From IMG/VR virus record IMGVR_UViG_3300030107_002788, positions 1 through 25,988 of that record: DNA of 25,988 nt; one strand, 5' to 3'. Below, piece after piece: positions 1 through 14,042 of the stretch (its first letter is position 1; every line of letters begins with the position of its first letter). Source of the DNA: a virus. The notes under the pieces are model-generated. The model saw only the letters and a list, made by a program, of their open reading frames with translations. It did not search any database and was not told the origin of the DNA. The position numbers and the translations under genes were made by a program.

Positions 1-340
1 CTTCTCTTAACCACTTCACAAGTTCCTTTTCTGTTTCAAATATTTTTGGTTCACTTGTGTACATAGTTTTTTCAACTACACATACTAATCTGTCTTGCGA
101 TAGCGATTCGGGATCCAGTGACACTTCTTTTTTTAGCTCTTCTATTAGTTTACATAATTCATTCCCATTGAATATATGATTCTTAAAGTCTGATTCTTCT
201 GTATCCTCTTCGTATACCATATCCTTTAGTTCTTTATCTTCAAGTATTATACAATCAGTTGTATATCGTAGGTTGGTATCCCATAGTGAGTGAGTATTAT
301 GTTCTAATAGTTCTAATAGTCTTTTTACTTTTGCTTTCAT
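1..340 (-). CDS. Partial unknown small protein, 3' end beyond the left edge
   Basis: An open frame runs from an ATG at 340-338 to the window edge without a stop, giving 113 visible codons; the C-terminus is missing. The protein starts MKAKVKRLLELLEHNTHSLW, is rich in Lys, Glu and Leu, and looks helical and soluble (for example KLIEELKKE). I see no signal peptide, membrane segment or known motif. The leader is A-rich (AACTATAAACAA before the ATG), like the other genes of this leftward cluster. It lies 26 bases downstream of the 162-residue gene, so the two are probably co-transcribed. Unlike the next two junctions upstream, this one has no hammerhead ribozyme. Function unknown; the gene is supported by frame length, position and leader. 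Confidence 0.75.
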   Translation of the reverse strand, partial: MKAKVKRLLELLEHNTHSLWDTNLRYTTDCIILEDKELKDMVYEEDTEESDFKNHIFNGNELCKLIEELKKEVSLDPESLSQDRLVCVVEKTMYTSEPKIFETEKELVKWLRE

Positions 341-352
341 TTGTTTATAGTT

Positions 353-382
353 TTTAGTTAGTATTATTATTTAGTTAGTATT
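353..382. repeat. 13-bp direct repeat at a gene junction
   Basis: The 13-mer TTTAGTTAGTATT occurs at 353-365 and again at 370-382, a 17-bp period. The right copy covers the last codons of the 162-residue gene and the left copy lies in the leader of the next gene. It could be a local duplication or slippage product. No function is assigned. Confidence 0.7.
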
Positions 383-855
383 CTGTACTGATAATCGTAG
401 TCATCTAAATCAGTATAAAAGTTACCATCTTTGTCTTCTTGTACAAAGTCTTCTCTATCGTGTGTAAAATTAAAGATGTTATTGTTATTACATTCTTTGA
501 TACATTCTTTTATCTGTATTTCTTTCTGCTCTAATTCCTTTTTATACATTTCTTTTGTCAGTAGTGCTACTTCGTTTACATTACACATTATTTCAATAGC
601 ATAGATTGTATCATCTAATTCAAATACTTGGTATGTTCCGTGGTCTTCAAACTCTCCCTCTTCATACTCTCCTACACCAAATACATATCCATCACCATCT
701 TTCCAGACCTTGTCTGCATATTGTTCGTTAGCTCTTTTTTTAGCATAGTTCATAGCTTTCCTTTTGGAGTCAAATACTTGTATGTCTGTTCCATTATCAG
801 AAGAGTACCCCTCTCCGTTCCAAGTATCTATTACGATATATTTTTTAGTTTTCAT
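367..855 (-). CDS. Unknown acidic protein, 162 aa
   Basis: A complete frame from ATG 855 to TAA 367. The N-terminal part (about residues 5-75) looks like a compact alpha/beta domain: a beta strand KKYIVIDTW, then DIQVFDSKRKAMNYAKKRANEQYA, and further beta-rich sequence. The C-terminal half (about 100-162) is highly charged, with a helix KKELEQKEIQIKECIKEC and an Asp/Tyr-rich end. I recognise no family and see no membrane segment. It is the gene immediately downstream of HHR-B: ribozyme cleavage would leave it a 24-nt A-rich leader starting UAUUACAAACUU. It is probably an early or accessory phage gene, judging only from small size, cluster organisation and lack of structural features. Confidence 0.85.
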   Translation of the reverse strand: MKTKKYIVIDTWNGEGYSSDNGTDIQVFDSKRKAMNYAKKRANEQYADKVWKDGDGYVFGVGEYEEGEFEDHGTYQVFELDDTIYAIEIMCNVNEVALLTKEMYKKELEQKEIQIKECIKECNNNNIFNFTHDREDFVQEDKDGNFYTDLDDYDYQYRILTK

Positions 856-873
856 AGTTATATTTTTAAGTTT

Positions 874-982
874 GTAATAGACAGAGGGAAATCAAACACG
901 ACAAATAGTTTAATCTTTATAAGGTTGGTTGTGTCCTAACCTAAACCCTCTGTTTCGCATATTAAATGCTCCTCAGTATTAC
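874..982 (-). ncRNA. Type I hammerhead ribozyme HHR-B with an enlarged stem III loop
   Basis: Read 5' to 3' on the minus strand. Stem I 5' strand is GUAAUA (982-977). The core CUGAGGA follows (976-970; position 7 is the variable N of CUGANGA). Stem II is GCAU/AUGC with loop UUAAU (969-957). Then come GAA (956-954) and stem III ACAGAGGG (953-946) pairing with CCCUCUGU (888-881). C17 is at 880, completing the GUC cleavage site, and stem I closes with UAUUAC (879-874). Cleavage is predicted between 880 and 879. Stem III is closed by a 57-nt insertion (945-889) that can form an inner hairpin AGGUU/AACCU. The element starts directly after the TAA stop of the 126-residue gene and ends 18 bases before the next ATG. 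All conserved hammerhead core nucleotides are present. Natural hammerheads occur in bacterial and phage genomes; activity here is inferred. Confidence 0.9.
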
Positions 983-1363
983 TTATCTTTTATATTGTTT
1001 TAATATTATTTCTGAACCATATCTTTTATTAATTTCTTTATGGTGTGTAACACATTTGTTATACACTTCTATTAAATGATGTAAGGTGTTATTTATATTA
1101 TCGTTCATCATATTAGTTCCACCAATTAATCTTTTTACTTCTTCTTTTAATTCTACATTTTCTTTTAATAATCTCGCTGACATATCTATTTCTTTTTTAC
1201 ATTTCTGTGTTAATTCATCGATATGGTCATTTAAAATCGTATCCAGATGTTTTAATTCTTTATTCTCCTTTCTTACCTCTACCATTTCCTTTACCATATC
1301 TTGATATTGTCCATATCTTTCTACTTCTTTCTGTTCTTTTAAAAATTGTTCTAATGTGTTCAT
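983..1363 (-). CDS. Unknown coiled-coil protein, 126 aa
   Basis: ATG at 1363, TAA at 983. Residues about 1-85 are almost entirely charged helix with heptad-like spacing (EQFLKEQKEVERYGQY, VEVRKENKELKHL, ARLLKENVELKEEVKRL), predicting a long coiled coil. A short Asn/His-rich C-terminal helix follows (NINNTLHHLIEVYNKCVTHH). No enzymatic motif, signal or membrane segment is seen. The gene is flanked on both sides by hammerhead ribozymes, HHR-A upstream and HHR-B starting right after its stop codon, so its mRNA could be released as a discrete 511-nt RNA. Its first codons and leader resemble those of the next gene upstream (both begin AUGAACACA). It could be an oligomerisation or adaptor protein; no function can be assigned. 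Confidence 0.85.
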   Translation of the reverse strand: MNTLEQFLKEQKEVERYGQYQDMVKEMVEVRKENKELKHLDTILNDHIDELTQKCKKEIDMSARLLKENVELKEEVKRLIGGTNMMNDNINNTLHHLIEVYNKCVTHHKEINKRYGSEIILKQYKR

Positions 1364-1384
1364 AATTTTATAGTTTTATAGTTT

Positions 1385-1438
1385 GTAATAGACAGGGGGA
1401 TTTTCCCCCTGTTTCGCATATTTGCTCATCAGTATTAC
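1385..1438 (-). ncRNA. Type I hammerhead ribozyme HHR-A, compact 54-nt form
   Basis: Read 5' to 3' on the minus strand. Stem I 5' strand is GUAAUA (1438-1433). The core CUGAUGA is at 1432-1426. Stem II is GCA-AAUA-UGC (1425-1416). GAA (1415-1413) is followed by stem III ACAGGGGGA, loop AAA, UCCCCCUGU (1412-1392). C17 at 1391 completes the GUC site, and stem I closes with UAUUAC (1390-1385). The predicted cut is between 1391 and 1390. All invariant hammerhead positions are present and every helix is fully paired. Stem I is the open helix, so it is type I. It starts 11 bases after the stop codon of the 88-residue gene and ends 21 bases before the next ATG. Comparison with HHR-B shows a compensatory change in stem III (G-C here, A-U there) and identical stem I strands. 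Strand, position and covariation argue against chance. Confidence 0.95.
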
Positions 1439-1449
1439 TTATTTTTTTT

Positions 1450-1716
1450 CTATTCTTCACAGGGAACATATTCATATGGTCGCAAAGCATAAGGGGTTGG
1501 GTTTTTAGTTTGAATATAACTTATAATACCTTTATTCTTTTTTTTCTTAATTACCTTTTCTTCTAATAGATACTCTATATGCTCTAATATTATTTCTTTG
1601 CTTATACAAAATTCAAGAGATACAAATTCTATTATTTCATTATTATTATAACCCATTCTTATTGCAGAAAATATGTTACCTAAAACATCTATGTTTATTT
1701 CATTTATTGTGTTCAT
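1450..1716 (-). CDS. Unknown small protein, 88 aa, possible winged-helix fold
   Basis: I choose the ATG at 1716 (MNTINEINIDVLG). The frame stays open to 1944, but a promoter at 1746-1778 lies inside that extension and the extra N-terminus is hydrophobic low-complexity sequence. The protein has three predicted helices in residues 8-52, including EIIEFVSLEFCISKEIILEHIEYLLEEKVI. A basic run KKKKNKG and a possible wing strand (IISYIQT) follow. This layout resembles a small helix-turn-helix/winged-helix DNA-binding domain, but no family is recognised. It is the first gene of the leftward cluster and sits directly behind its promoter. Its leader and first codons resemble those of the following gene. 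HHR-A lies just after its stop codon, so its processed mRNA would end in the stable ribozyme hairpins. Confidence 0.8.
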   Translation of the reverse strand: MNTINEINIDVLGNIFSAIRMGYNNNEIIEFVSLEFCISKEIILEHIEYLLEEKVIKKKKNKGIISYIQTKNPTPYALRPYEYVPCEE

Positions 1717-1745: not shown

Positions 1746-1778
1746 CAAATATAAAAACAAATATATTTAATATCCAAA
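1746..1778 (-). promoter_or_regulatory. Bacteroidota-type promoter for the leftward small-gene cluster
   Basis: On the minus strand: TTTG (1778-1775), a 21-base spacer, then TATATTTG (1753-1746), an exact match to the TTTG / TAnnTTTG pattern. The -7 box ends 29 bases before the ATG at 1716. Transcription would start near 1741-1739, at the sequence UACAAAC, closely resembling the 5' ends that the two downstream hammerheads would create. A second TATATTTG at 1765-1758 has no matching -33 box. Confidence 0.8.
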
Positions 1779-2714: not shown

Positions 2715-3128
2715 TTGAAATATTCTAAATTAACTAATTCTAAAAAGAAGAAAAAGGAACAGTTAGGAATGGATCCAGGCACGGCAGCCAACAGGCTTCG
2801 TAAGGCTATATTGTTTTCATTTGCTAAAAGGTTAGATTTAAACTTTTGTTATCAGTGTGGATGTCAGATAGAAGATATTCATAGATTTACTATAGAGCAT
2901 AAGATTCCTTGGTTAGATTCAGAAGATCCTAGACATTTGTTTTTTGACATGGATAATATAGCATTCTCACACGATAGTTGTAATTATAGAGCTTCTAGGG
3001 GAAGAATAGGTAAGCCATGTCCTTCTGTTACAGCATATAGAAAAGGTTGTAGGTGTGAGGGTTGTTTAGATGCTAAACGTCAATATAGGGAAAATAAAAA
3101 GAGGTATAAAGATTCTTTAAAGGATTAA
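2715..3128 (+). CDS. HNH homing-type endonuclease with an extra C-terminal cysteine motif, 137 aa
   Basis: The frame opens with TTG 2715, directly after an in-frame TAA. I prefer this to ATG 2769 because KEQLGMDPGTAANRLRK (residues 14-30) looks family-conserved and the upstream bases (TAAAAACAAATAA) match the leader of the gene at 8746. HNH elements: C45-x2-C48, IEHKIPW with H62, DNIAFSH with N81 and H86, and C89. After the nuclease core, residues 101-117 carry a second cysteine cluster (PCPS..AYRKGCRCEGC; C102, C112, C114, C117) that probably binds another zinc, followed by a basic helix. The protein would nick or cut DNA and may help its own gene spread, or act in packaging as some phage HNH proteins do. 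Its last 4 bases overlap the end of the convergent gene on the minus strand, with no terminator between them. Confidence 0.88.
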   Translation: MKYSKLTNSKKKKKEQLGMDPGTAANRLRKAILFSFAKRLDLNFCYQCGCQIEDIHRFTIEHKIPWLDSEDPRHLFFDMDNIAFSHDSCNYRASRGRIGKPCPSVTAYRKGCRCEGCLDAKRQYRENKKRYKDSLKD

Positions 3129-5329: not shown

Positions 5330-7057
5330 TTACTTCTTTTTCTTTTTTAATTTTATAGAACCACCCTTGGAGTAGTTATTAATTTTACCTCCTTTAGAGT
5401 ATTTATTTACCCTCATTCCTTTTTTACCACTTTGAGTTTGTGGACCTTTAATTCCTTTAACAAAGGCACGCTCTTCTTCACTAAGCTGACTTTGAGGTTT
5501 TCCTTTAAGTGCTTCCATAGCCGCTTCCTCACTTTCATACTCATTTCCTCCTATAGTAAACGCCTCCGTTTCCTCAGCAACAGGTTCTTTTTGCTCTTCA
5601 ATAGTTTGTGTTCCTGTTACTACCTCTGTATCACCAGCATCACCAGCATCACCAGCATCACCAGCATCACCACCTGTATCACCACCAGTTCCTGTTCCCG
5701 TTCCTGTTCCTCCACCATCACCTTCTTCATCACCTATAAATGTGTACATCGCATCCCACTCTTCTTGAGTTAATTTTTTAGGTTTTTTATCACCAGGTTT
5801 ATCACCAGGTTCCCCACCACCTTTGTTTAACTCCGCCAATTCATCATCAGACCATTCTCCCATAACTCCTTCCAAATCATCTTCTTGCTCTATAAAAGAA
5901 GGAACATTCATTCTTTTTGACATATCAAGCTCTAGTTCTGTTTCTCCCCCAGTTGGACTAATAGGTCCTTTATGTTCAATTTTTTCTATAGAAGGTTGCT
6001 TACCTACATTTTTTAATTCTTCCTTATCCACGCCCTCTAAAGCTCTTTGTTGAAAGGCCATGTCATTTAAATACTTATTCATTAAATCCCTGGCGGCTGG
6101 AGATACCCCTCTCGAAGTACCATCCTGGCCCACATAAGAGTCCCCCATATTACCATCTGCATCCAGGTAAAACGTGTTTCTATGATCCAACATATACCCA
6201 AGGTCTTCATTTTGGAAAGCCTGTTGATACATCGAGTTCATACTGTTAACAGCATTTTGACTTGGTCTAAAGGTATATGGATTTTTTTCTGGGTCCTGAT
6301 TATGAGCTCTTCCTATCGTTCTACTTAAAGAACCCCCATTATCACCCAATGTAATCTTGTTATATCTATCATTTTTATTATCTGGATCTGGCAAAAGGTA
6401 ATCAAAGTTTCCAGAAGGATTATTGTACCACTCTTCAAGCATGTTTGCACTTTCAGTAGAAGTCATTTCAGTTCCAACGCCACCACCAAGTGTTCTATAT
6501 ATTTGATTATATGTGTGAACATTCATTCCACCTATTTTACTTTGCTCACGTGATCCTTCTTCAAATCCAGTTCCAGAAATATGTGGCATTTGGTGCATCC
6601 AATGTTCTTTTTGTGGGTTAAAGCTCATTTGATCACCCCAACCCCCTAAAGATTTCATGTATCTAGGGTCGTCTATATGATATTCACCCGTATTTTGCCA
6701 AGTAGTTTGAAAAACATCAAGTTGACCCGTTTCTTGATCATACCACAACCTATCTTCTTTAGGACCACCAGCTCCAGTAACATAGTGCGAACTAGCACCA
6801 ACACCACCCATACTAGGGTCATATAAATCAGACGGATCAAACTGAGAAACTGGATCTTGAGTCCAAGTCCCATCATCTGCTTGCTGTAAGTTTGTTGCTG
6901 AAGCAAAAGCATCATGAGCGGAACGTTCTGCTGCTATTTGAGTATCTTCATAATAACTACTGTCCGTGTCACTAGGAACTTGAGTAACGTCCTGTGCGTA
7001 GACCATTGGTCTCCCTCCTTTAGAGTATTTGTTTTGTGATTTCTTTTTTAATCTCAT
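5330..7057 (-). CDS. Large low-complexity protein with terminal KYSKGG motifs, 575 aa, putative virion-associated
   Basis: I start at ATG 7057 (MRLKKKSQNKYSKGG) rather than the in-frame ATG at 7102, because 7057 forms an ATGA overlap with the stop of the regulator gene, implying translational coupling. KYSKGGR lies near the N-terminus (Tyr about residue 11); KYSKGGK and NYSKGGS lie near the C-terminus (Tyr about 553 and 562), followed by a KLKKKKK tail. Between them is a Gln/Asn/Tyr-rich region (about 20-340) with short segments such as NPYTFRPSQNAVNSMNSMYQ, then an acidic linker with GTGTGTGTG and GDAGDAGDAGDAGD repeats. No enzymatic domain is recognised. Basic ends on an acidic body, together with the neighbouring protein, suggest a packaged or scaffold-type protein; this is inference. 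Confidence 0.82.
   Translation of the reverse strand: MRLKKKSQNKYSKGGRPMVYAQDVTQVPSDTDSSYYEDTQIAAERSAHDAFASATNLQQADDGTWTQDPVSQFDPSDLYDPSMGGVGASSHYVTGAGGPKEDRLWYDQETGQLDVFQTTWQNTGEYHIDDPRYMKSLGGWGDQMSFNPQKEHWMHQMPHISGTGFEEGSREQSKIGGMNVHTYNQIYRTLGGGVGTEMTSTESANMLEEWYNNPSGNFDYLLPDPDNKNDRYNKITLGDNGGSLSRTIGRAHNQDPEKNPYTFRPSQNAVNSMNSMYQQAFQNEDLGYMLDHRNTFYLDADGNMGDSYVGQDGTSRGVSPAARDLMNKYLNDMAFQQRALEGVDKEELKNVGKQPSIEKIEHKGPISPTGGETELELDMSKRMNVPSFIEQEDDLEGVMGEWSDDELAELNKGGGEPGDKPGDKKPKKLTQEEWDAMYTFIGDEEGDGGGTGTGTGTGGDTGGDAGDAGDAGDAGDTEVVTGTQTIEEQKEPVAEETEAFTIGGNEYESEEAAMEALKGKPQSQLSEEERAFVKGIKGPQTQSGKKGMRVNKYSKGGKINNYSKGGSIKLKKKKK
5631..5711. repeat. Short tandem repeats within the 575-aa gene
   Basis: Four perfect 9-bp units (TCACCAGCA on the plus strand, 5631-5666) encode Gly-Asp-Ala repeats. 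A 6-bp-type repeat around 5685-5711 (CCTGTT variants) encodes a Gly-Thr run. They are in frame and probably form a flexible linker that can change length by slippage. Confidence 0.85.
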
Positions 7058-11437: not shown

Positions 11438-11728
11438 ATGGAAGATCACGAAATCTTAGACGTATGTATGGAAAATTCATATGACCTTATTATGGGTAAG
11501 AAATCGTTAGATGAAATACTAGATTCAAGTGAAGTTCCTTATATCTTATGGAACGTGGTTAGCGAAAAAGATCTTAGAAGCTCAATATTCAACGACATCC
11601 TAGACCTTATGATAAAATATTATGAAGACTTAGAAATGTATGAACGATGTTCAGAATTATTAAAATTTAAGAAAAATGAGAAGCTTAGACGTAAAAAGAA
11701 GATTAGAAGAGCTAATAGAATCGGGTAA
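11438..11728 (+). CDS. Unknown small protein, 96 aa
   Basis: ATG 11438, one base after the TAG of the GroES-like gene; stop at 11728. The N-terminal 70 residues are acidic and helical (EILDVCMENSYDLIMG, SLDEILDSSEVPYILW, SIFNDILDLMIKYYEDLEMYERCSELL). The C-terminal 20 residues are very basic (KFKKNEKLRRKKKIRRANRIG). Such an acidic helix with a basic tail may bind nucleic acid or a partner protein, but no family is recognised. Its last 53 bases overlap the next gene in another frame, and the basic tail is encoded in this overlap, so its composition may be constrained by both frames. Confidence 0.75.
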   Translation: MEDHEILDVCMENSYDLIMGKKSLDEILDSSEVPYILWNVVSEKDLRSSIFNDILDLMIKYYEDLEMYERCSELLKFKKNEKLRRKKKIRRANRIG

Positions 11729-11966
11729 ACAAGCATTTGATCTTTTGCTTGAAGAAGTTAAAAAACCTATAGACCCAGAATTACAAGACGATAAGGCTAG
11801 AAACGCCATGAAAGCAAAGAAAGAGTGCTTTATGGACGCACAGGAAATTTTAATATCTATTAATAAGATAGAAAAACAAATAGAAGGAGAGGATACTGAT
11901 CAAGACATAGATAAAGACGAAAATTCATTTCAAGCTGGCTTCTCAGAAAAATACGCTAAAAAATAG
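11676..11966 (+). CDS. Small helical protein upstream of the terminase, 96 aa
   Basis: ATG 11676 (GAAAAATGAGAAG context), stop 11966. The protein is nearly all helix: LDVKRRLEELIESGKQAFDLLLEEV, then DPELQDDKARNAMKAKKECFMDAQEILISINKIEKQIEG, ending in an acidic tail. I infer a possible small-terminase or DNA-packaging accessory role from the position directly before the large terminase, but no helix-turn-helix signature is clear and I do not recognise a small-terminase family. It overlaps the previous gene by 53 bases, and 48 bases separate it from the large terminase, a gap containing a promoter-like -7 box. Confidence 0.75.
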   Translation: MRSLDVKRRLEELIESGKQAFDLLLEEVKKPIDPELQDDKARNAMKAKKECFMDAQEILISINKIEKQIEGEDTDQDIDKDENSFQAGFSEKYAKK

Positions 11967-12014: not shown

Positions 12015-14042
12015 ATGGAAGGAAAAATAAGAGTAAATGGATTGTATTTTAAACTTCCTCCTAAACCAAAGAAAAAGGATATTCTTTTTTCTGATCTAAA
12101 AAAGAAAGATCAAAAGTGGAGGAGAACAGAAATGCCAGATACACTTTCAGAAGAAACTGCTGCTAATCATTCAGAATTTATAAACAAAGAATTTGAAAGA
12201 AGAAGGGGTGGGGTTTGGTTTATGAATAATGGAAAACCTACTTATATAACAGGAGAGCATTACTACTACTTAAATTGGTGTAAGTTAGATATTGGTTATC
12301 CTCAATATAGAGATAGGGATAGAAGGTTCTTTGTTTTTTGGGAAATATGTAAAAACGATCCAGAGTGTTTTGGAATGGTTATGGTAAAACATCGTAGAGA
12401 GGGTGCTTCTTATAAAGGAGCCGCTATGTTGTTACACGAAATAACATCTAGGTACAACTCACATGGTGGGATTATAAGTAAAACAGGTGTGGATGCTAAA
12501 TCATTATTTACTGATAAATTAGTTTATATGTTTAGGCACCTTCCTTTTTTCTTCCAACCTATTATAGATGGTAGTGATAACCCGAAGAGTACATTAAGTT
12601 TTAATGCTCCAGGACAAAAAATATCTAAAAACTATAAGAAGATTGTTAAGTCAGAGGCTTTAAATAGTAAGATAGATTGGAGAAACACAAAGGATAATTC
12701 TTATGACTCTGTTAAGTTAGTTAGGTATTTATGTGATGAGGGAGGAAAATGGGTAGACGCTAACGTGGAAAAGAATTGGCAAGTTGTTAGATCCTGTTTA
12801 ACATTAGGAGATAAGATTATAGGAAAATGTTTTATGCCTACCACCGTGAATGAAATGGCTGACTCAGGTGGAGAAAGATTTAAGAATATATGGGATGATA
12901 GCAGTATAGAAGAAAGAGATGCTAACGGAAGAACTAGATCTGGAATGTATAGTTATTTTACTCCAGCTTATGATGGATACGAAGGGTTTATAGATGAGTA
13001 TGGAATGTCTGTTATTAATACACCAACAAAAGAGCAGGCTAGGTTTATAGGTAAAAATATTGGTGCTAAAGAATATCTTCAGAATGTAAGAGAGGCTTAT
13101 AAGAAAAATACTACCAAGCTTTCTGAGGAAAAAAGACAAAGACCTTTTACGGTTGAAGAGGCTTTTAGAAGTGACTCAAGACATAGTCCTTTTGATGTAG
13201 AAAGAATATATCAACAAATGGATTATAACGAAGAGTCAGATGGATTAATTGTTAAGGGTGATTTTATATGGAAGGATGGTATTAAAGATACAAAGGTTGT
13301 TTGGAAACCAGGATCTACAGGTAGGTGGAGAATATCTTGGTTACCACCAGAGGAAAGGAGAAATAATATAAAAATGAAGGGTGTTAAAAAATGCCCAGGA
13401 AATGATATAGAGATGGTTGCAGGATGTGACCCTTATGATCATGACACAACAACAGATGGTAGAAGATCAGATGCAGCGTGTTATGTTTATAAGAAGTTTA
13501 CAATGATGGATGATTTCTCTAATGTTTTTGTTTGCGAGTATATAGCACGACCTCCTAAAGCAGAAATGTTTTATGAAGACGTTCTTAAGACTTGTGTTTT
13601 TTATGGGTGTCCGATACTGGTTGAGAATAATAAAATAGGTATTATAAAATACTTTGAAAGAAGAGGTTATTATGAGTACCTAATGGATAGGCCAGAATCA
13701 ACCCATACAGATAGTAGTAGAAAACAAAAAACAAAAGGAATACCTTCTACGGGTGTAGCTGTATTGAATGCACAAACAGAAGCAATAGCTTCATATGTGT
13801 ATGATTATATAGGTATACTTGATTTAGAAACAATGGAGATGGGTAGGTGTTATTTTAATAGACTACTTGATGATTGGAGTCGTTTTGAACCAGATAATAG
13901 AACAAAGTATGATGCCACTGTAGCCTCAAGCTTAGCTTTATTAGCTGCCCAAAAACATGTTACAATAAAAAAGGTTAAGAAAATAAGTATTAACTTTATA
14001 AAAAAATATAATAATTCAGGATTAATATCTAAGAGAATATAG
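12015..14042 (+). CDS. terL: Terminase large subunit, 675 aa
   Basis: ATG 12015. The N-terminal ATPase domain has a Walker-A-like segment KHRREGASYKG (about 125-135), a divergent P-loop as in many TerL proteins, and a Walker B YLCDEGGK with D241 and E242 after a hydrophobic strand. Residues 270-280 (KCFMPTTVNE) fit the coupling motif region. The C-terminal RNase-H-like nuclease has VAGCDPYD (D472), ILVENN (E538) and KYDATVASSLALL (D633), the expected three acidic positions. The enzyme pumps DNA through the portal and cuts the genome during packaging. The length is ordinary for TerL. The stop codon TAG is followed immediately by the portal ATG, implying coupled translation. Confidence 0.95.
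   Translation: MEGKIRVNGLYFKLPPKPKKKDILFSDLKKKDQKWRRTEMPDTLSEETAANHSEFINKEFERRRGGVWFMNNGKPTYITGEHYYYLNWCKLDIGYPQYRDRDRRFFVFWEICKNDPECFGMVMVKHRREGASYKGAAMLLHEITSRYNSHGGIISKTGVDAKSLFTDKLVYMFRHLPFFFQPIIDGSDNPKSTLSFNAPGQKISKNYKKIVKSEALNSKIDWRNTKDNSYDSVKLVRYLCDEGGKWVDANVEKNWQVVRSCLTLGDKIIGKCFMPTTVNEMADSGGERFKNIWDDSSIEERDANGRTRSGMYSYFTPAYDGYEGFIDEYGMSVINTPTKEQARFIGKNIGAKEYLQNVREAYKKNTTKLSEEKRQRPFTVEEAFRSDSRHSPFDVERIYQQMDYNEESDGLIVKGDFIWKDGIKDTKVVWKPGSTGRWRISWLPPEERRNNIKMKGVKKCPGNDIEMVAGCDPYDHDTTTDGRRSDAACYVYKKFTMMDDFSNVFVCEYIARPPKAEMFYEDVLKTCVFYGCPILVENNKIGIIKYFERRGYYEYLMDRPESTHTDSSRKQKTKGIPSTGVAVLNAQTEAIASYVYDYIGILDLETMEMGRCYFNRLLDDWSRFEPDNRTKYDATVASSLALLAAQKHVTIKKVKKISINFIKKYNNSGLISKRI

Follow-up and report, generated by a model that had tools for sequence, protein, structure and literature searches.

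A type I hammerhead ribozyme between two small genes of a Bacteroidota-type phage, probably a member of a compact phage class punctuating early transcripts

Several hammerheads placed around single prophage genes have been described, and the processing of their transcripts into gene-length mRNAs was proposed; three native arrangements were cleaved in vitro and one of them also in E. coli (Perreault et al. 2011, PMC3088659). The same source reports a hammerhead variant located 13 nt ahead of the helicase start codon of haloviruses HF1/HF2, where the transcript 5' end is related to the cleavage site (Perreault et al. 2011). The HDV-like theta ribozymes of gut phages (PMC10879173) are also self-cleaving ribozymes of Bacteroidota and Bacillota phages, but they have a different fold, and the role proposed for them is tRNA 3'-trailer processing. 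A 2017 review (PMC6155905) still treated the role of prokaryotic hammerheads as unsettled.

The element described here, HHR-A, is a viral hammerhead localized just before a start codon, as in HF1/HF2; the latter, however, belongs to an archaeal virus, is a structural variant and occurs as a single copy before the helicase gene. HHR-A is a type I hammerhead, recognized by sequence motif, fold and covariance model, at 1385..1438 on the minus strand of the window (i.e., the whole stretch of 25,988 nucleotides that was analysed). Read from 1438 to 1385, its sequence is GUAAUA-CUGAUGA-GCA(AAUA)UGC-GAA-ACAGGGGGA(AAA)UCCCCCUGU-C/UAUUAC, the slash being the predicted cut. It is composed of: (i) an open helix I of 6 bp (1438-1433/1390-1385); (ii) the core CUGAUGA (1432-1426); (iii) stem-loop II, GCAAAUAUGC, of 10 nt with 3 bp (1425-1416); (iv) GAA (1415-1413); (v) a closed stem III of 9 bp, ACAGGGGGAAAAUCCCCCUGU (1412-1392); (vi) C17 of a GUC site (1391), with a predicted cut between 1391 and 1390. 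All core positions of a type I hammerhead are present, including CUGANGA, GAA, A15.1-U16.1 and H17, and the three helices, II and III closed and I open, surround the core. The minimum-free-energy structure is identical to the hammerhead fold (z-score of -4.0 alone and -5.5 with flanks). An earlier note had read this minus-strand stretch as a complete type I core with helices of 6, 3 and 9 bp, GUC and A15.1-U16.1, which the sequence, the motif scan and the fold confirm.

The position between two small genes of a leftward cluster, also claimed in that note, is borne out. HHR-A begins 11 nt past the stop of an 88-aa ORF (MNTINEIN..., 1450..1716, minus strand) and ends 21 nt ahead of the ATG of a 126-aa ORF (MNTLEQF..., 983..1363, minus strand). 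The latter ORF has a weak match to phrog_3671 (a family of unknown function) and its stop codon abuts helix I of a second ribozyme, HHR-B; 18 nt past that helix I is the ATG of a 162-aa ORF (MKTKKYIVIDT..., 367..855, minus strand). A Bacteroidota-like promoter, TTTG-21-TATATTTG, found by motif match at 1746..1778 (minus strand), reads into the cluster. With 5 matches in the window vs. 1.9 expected, this motif is weak alone; the 1746-1778 site lies in a leader conserved in two related phages, L001 and L206. The attribution to a Bacteroidota-type phage agrees with this upstream motif and with the large terminase, about 40% identical to that of Flavobacterium elemo phages. As for intergenic processing, the idea is not new, since it was proposed for prophage hammerheads by Perreault et al. 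2011 (PMC3088659). Two other features of the neighbourhood can be mentioned: a small divergent ORF beside the early cluster (2715-3128, plus strand), with a Pfam HNH endonuclease match barely over the cut-off, and a CA-rich stretch with repeated ACAC/ACGC units (2100-2190) between the divergent gene clusters.

HHR-A is the sole type I/III motif on both strands of the window when the stem III loop is limited to 60 nt. Allowing a longer stem III in the scan adds HHR-B, and still none on the plus strand. Motifs with at least 6/3/8 pairs never appeared in 200 dinucleotide shuffles of the window, and one with at least 4/3/4 appeared once.

Rfam 15 reported no hammerhead family in the window at E<=10, only chance families. 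RAGATH-1-hammerhead (RF03152) matched neither HHR-A nor HHR-B, its gathering score of 56.3 bits not being reached. No Rfam match at gathering level was found in 14 loci (123 kb) that hold several tens of related hammerheads; class hammerheads of other loci were matched below threshold only. The silence of Rfam thus says little on HHR-A, since its models also miss dozens of related hammerheads at gathering score. RF00163 (Hammerhead_1) has the same topology and core, with stems II and III closed and helix I open; nevertheless, phage class members score 25-30 bits, under its gathering cut-off of 34, and HHR-A is unreported at E<=10. Several class members score highest, among the Rfam families, with RF03152 (27-41 bits), always below 56.3.

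Related hammerheads were gathered by DNA pattern scans, and a covariance model, R1, was built from 33 phage hammerheads with common stem sizes, the window and its close relatives being excluded. HHR-A is the best match of R1 in the window (39.2 bits, E 4.3e-10, E-values being approximate), and the 5' half of HHR-B is also matched (22.2 bits). The covariance-model search by which the earlier note proposed to check the element gave nothing with Rfam, an outcome that the note had named as refuting it, but succeeded with this purpose-built model. In the training set (n=33), 13 of the 16 pairs show changes on both sides, with a covariation score of 0.84 vs. 0.17 after shuffling. That the motif is due to chance or to coding sequence has a practically negligible probability: a 40-aa frame (1368-1490, minus strand) does run through HHR-A, but none of the 200 shuffles produced a motif at equal strictness, R1 is independent of the window, and stem III changes are compensated in L206.

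The class to which HHR-A is compared counts at least 185 distinct hammerheads in at least 133 loci (motif scan of fetched loci). The pairing of its members is partly true by construction, because they were chosen by motif; with a pattern that made no demand for pairing, all three helices are formed in 144 of the 150 distinct matches listed. Among the 157 listed matches with a 13-nt stem-loop II, the base 5' of helix I is A in 154, loop II reads U-N-A-N-U (U5 in 154, A7 in 143, U9 in 125), the first base 3' of helix I is A in 138, the outer pair of helix I is mostly G-C, and pairing past 6 bp is possible in only 13. The main pattern left free the 5' flank, the loop letters, the 3' flank and the helix I length. 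On the other hand, the 13-nt length, A2.1, U1.1, G10.1-C11.1 and GAAAC were demanded by it and are not independent findings. Loop II would dock on helix I at its open end, which lies 6 bp away from the core, and so take the part that an internal loop plays in other type I hammerheads. Of the 27 stretches from a scan of genome contigs, only 2 (L058 and L066) pass the hammerhead scan, which indicates that the class is mainly viral. The first pattern scan gave 34 stretches, most of them coding look-alikes without helices, which were rejected.

HHR-A has the helix I of 6 bp and the outer G-C pair of this class, with A on its 5' side and AAA on its 3' side (the class having AA). As in the class, it is in sense orientation between a stop and an ATG 10-39 nt downstream. 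It lacks, however, the class stem-loop II (4 bp plus UNANU), having only 3 bp and the loop AAUA; «complete», the word of the earlier note, is right for the core and the helices but not for this peripheral motif, shared by nearly all relatives. Because U5 of loop II and the fourth pair of stem II are missing, the tertiary docking of HHR-A is possibly weak.

HHR-B (874..982, minus strand), a second and longer type I hammerhead identified by motif scan, fold and the partial R1 match, has a helix I identical to that of HHR-A, G at N7 and a predicted cut between 880 and 879. Its stem-loop II is the regular one of 13 nt, GCAU-UUAAU-AUGC, with the UNANU loop as in L001, and that of HHR-A is the same minus UUU (GCAUUUAAUAUGC to GCAAAUAUGC). 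HHR-A may be slower than HHR-B, owing to its short loop II. Stem III of HHR-B encloses a 57-nt insert (945-889, minus strand). This insert, whose predicted fold is two hairpins, is nearly identical in the L001 copy (5673-5782), and a different long insert occupies the same place in another phage (L040, 3167-3292).

The relatives of the window phage found by blastn are L001, L206 (86% identity along 4.6 kb in another part of the genome) and L004. One hammerhead copy, with the HHR-B insert, is present in L001 and two are present in L206. The first of the latter (12353-12408) agrees with HHR-A in helix I, in the core and in the 10-nt stem-loop II, while all pairs of stem III but the three proximal to the core differ, with pairing kept. 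This retention of pairs under replacement of stem III is the best evidence that HHR-A is kept as an RNA structure. In the second (11663-11773, plus strand), stem III is long and positions 10.1-11.1 form an A.A mismatch; this copy is possibly weak or impaired.

These data bear on the reading that HHR-A is decaying, i.e., real by descent but, with UUU lost from stem-loop II, no longer docking and cutting little, HHR-B being the working copy. The 10-nt stem-loop II was found in two members only, in the window and in L206, although IMG/VR was scanned for that length, and loop II otherwise shows strong conservation of U5, A7 and U9. Yet the identical 10-nt stem II stands in L206 beside a stem III mostly replaced and still paired, when relaxed constraint predicts otherwise, and the core, the flanks and the cleavage triplet of HHR-A are intact. 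Decay is thus considered unlikely.

It is very unlikely that the element is a mere hairpin 3' of the upstream gene, with stem III acting as an intrinsic terminator or exonuclease barrier and the core being incidental. Stem III does have a high stability and was flagged as a terminator-like hairpin poor in T's. However, it is not followed by a real U-run, the gap of 21 nt to the next gene is too small for a separate promoter, and the hammerhead core does not vary among phages whose stem III, usually a short hairpin with frequent GNRA or UNCG loops, is unrelated.

HHR-A with its L206 counterpart, and HHR-B with that of L001, form similarity islands of about 90-150 nt with different genes on either side. 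Moreover, helix I is shared by 22 of 95 ribozyme pairs of the same locus vs. 3% between loci. Both observations would suit modules that serve mainly as shared homology for swaps of small genes, cleavage then being either secondary or incidental to the spread of the modules. We regard this as quite improbable, since pure homology patches need neither an invariant core nor compensatory stems, and since in most of the class the sequences of different phages have diverged too far to recombine. The reading retained for HHR-A is that of a genuine type I hammerhead belonging to a compact phage class which punctuates polycistronic early transcripts, and we hold it to be probable.

The location of the class relative to genes was compared with random places. 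Among the matches listed that had enough flanking sequence, an ATG (frame of at least 35 codons) is found within 40 nt downstream in 151 of 170 cases in sense and in 19 of 170 in antisense, vs. 199 of 850 random places, and the median gap from hammerhead to ATG is 19 nt. An upstream stop starts at -9 to +1 of C3 in 111 of the 177 listed matches vs. 31 of 885 random places, an overlap which partly reflects tight intergenic gaps because the control is random places and not ribozyme-free gene boundaries. Among the same 177, the stop is the catalytic U4-G5-A6 in 28, lies at 2.3-2.1 in 20, and is formed by the two bases before helix I plus its outer base in 29. Upstream stops on the ribozyme could simply result from compact genomes and stop-like letters of the motif. 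One phage record contains nine hammerheads in 4.3 kb, of which six share sequence with the 3' end of the preceding ORF and are followed by an ATG after 13-16 nt; a BLAST search of this region against phage records gave no match.

The proteins encoded downstream (n=144) belong to no common or dominant family, with anti-restriction, ArdC, MazG and DUF matches in 1-3 each, as expected of a general processing element. In one locus (L089), a twister-P3 ribozyme (174-241, plus strand, above the Rfam gathering score) lies 39 nt before an ATG and one gene ahead of a hammerhead, so that two consecutive genes are each preceded by a ribozyme. It must be noted that the same genes can have ribozyme-free spacers in related phages, which implies that processing is not essential for those genes.

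BLAST of single hammerheads against phage records gave mostly chance matches, but led to three records with class members. Flavobacterium phage elemoA_7-9A has a class hammerhead just before gp69 (NC_055852, 17290-17347, minus strand, E 5.6e-13), and class members are also found in Pelagibacter phage Jormungand and a pelagivirus fosmid. No class hammerhead is present in the related phage record MW202828. In elemoA the small annotated antisense ORF gp68 overlaps the hammerhead (NC_055852 17275-17382, i.e., L195 2964-3071) and is probably spurious; on the strand opposite gp68, an unannotated 21-aa frame ends with TAG on helix I.

HHR-A is very likely a hammerhead ribozyme that cuts the transcript carrying it at a site between two small genes. 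The most likely function of the class is to cut early polycistronic transcripts into single-gene mRNAs. The analysis shows the anatomy, the independent model match, the stem covariation, the sense orientation and the fixed stop-start position in many phages, and we infer cleavage, end chemistry, mRNA stabilisation and translation sensitivity. RNA polymerase would start at the promoter near 1746-1778 and transcribe leftward the 88-, 126- and 162-aa genes. As ribosome-free intergenic RNA emerges, the hammerhead would fold and cut itself after C17, separating the genes. The upstream mRNA would end just past its stop with the stem II and III hairpins and a 2',3'-cyclic phosphate, and should resist 3' exonucleases. 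The downstream gene would be released on its own mRNA, whose 5' end bears a hydroxyl and whose leader, about 25 nt long, comprises hardly more than the ribosome-binding region; for HHR-A this RNA is predicted to begin 27 nt before the ATG (6 nt of helix I plus 21). In most cases the stop of the upstream gene in this class lies on helix I or the core, or abuts one of them; from this geometry, a ribosome terminating there should shield the ribozyme and delay the cut, and cleavage is expected to be translation-sensitive.

For the prophage arrays, the available part of Perreault et al. 2011 mentions neither a stop-codon overlap, nor a UNANU or A..AA signature, nor an open helix I fixed at 6 bp. 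The arrays they tested were tandem or triple, vs. up to nine hammerheads in 4.3 kb in the present class, which comes mostly from virus contigs and also from a cultured relative of the window, a Flavobacterium phage. In the open-licence papers searched, neither the stop-codon overlap nor the loop and flank signature was found to be described. These class regularities look new, whereas the idea of processing was already known.

A wider proposal is only tentative and rather doubtful: in phages of many lineages, small early genes may be ribozyme-bounded cassettes, each with its stop on or against a hammerhead and a short set leader, expressed as its own mRNA under the control of ribosome traffic and swapped at the shared modules. 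A stop on the ribozyme and an ATG about 19 nt further, whatever the downstream gene, lead to a sharp prediction of the positions of 5'-hydroxyl ends, which can be checked in the cultured Flavobacterium phage. Since standard Rfam screening misses the class, ribozyme-cut phage operons are probably under-counted.
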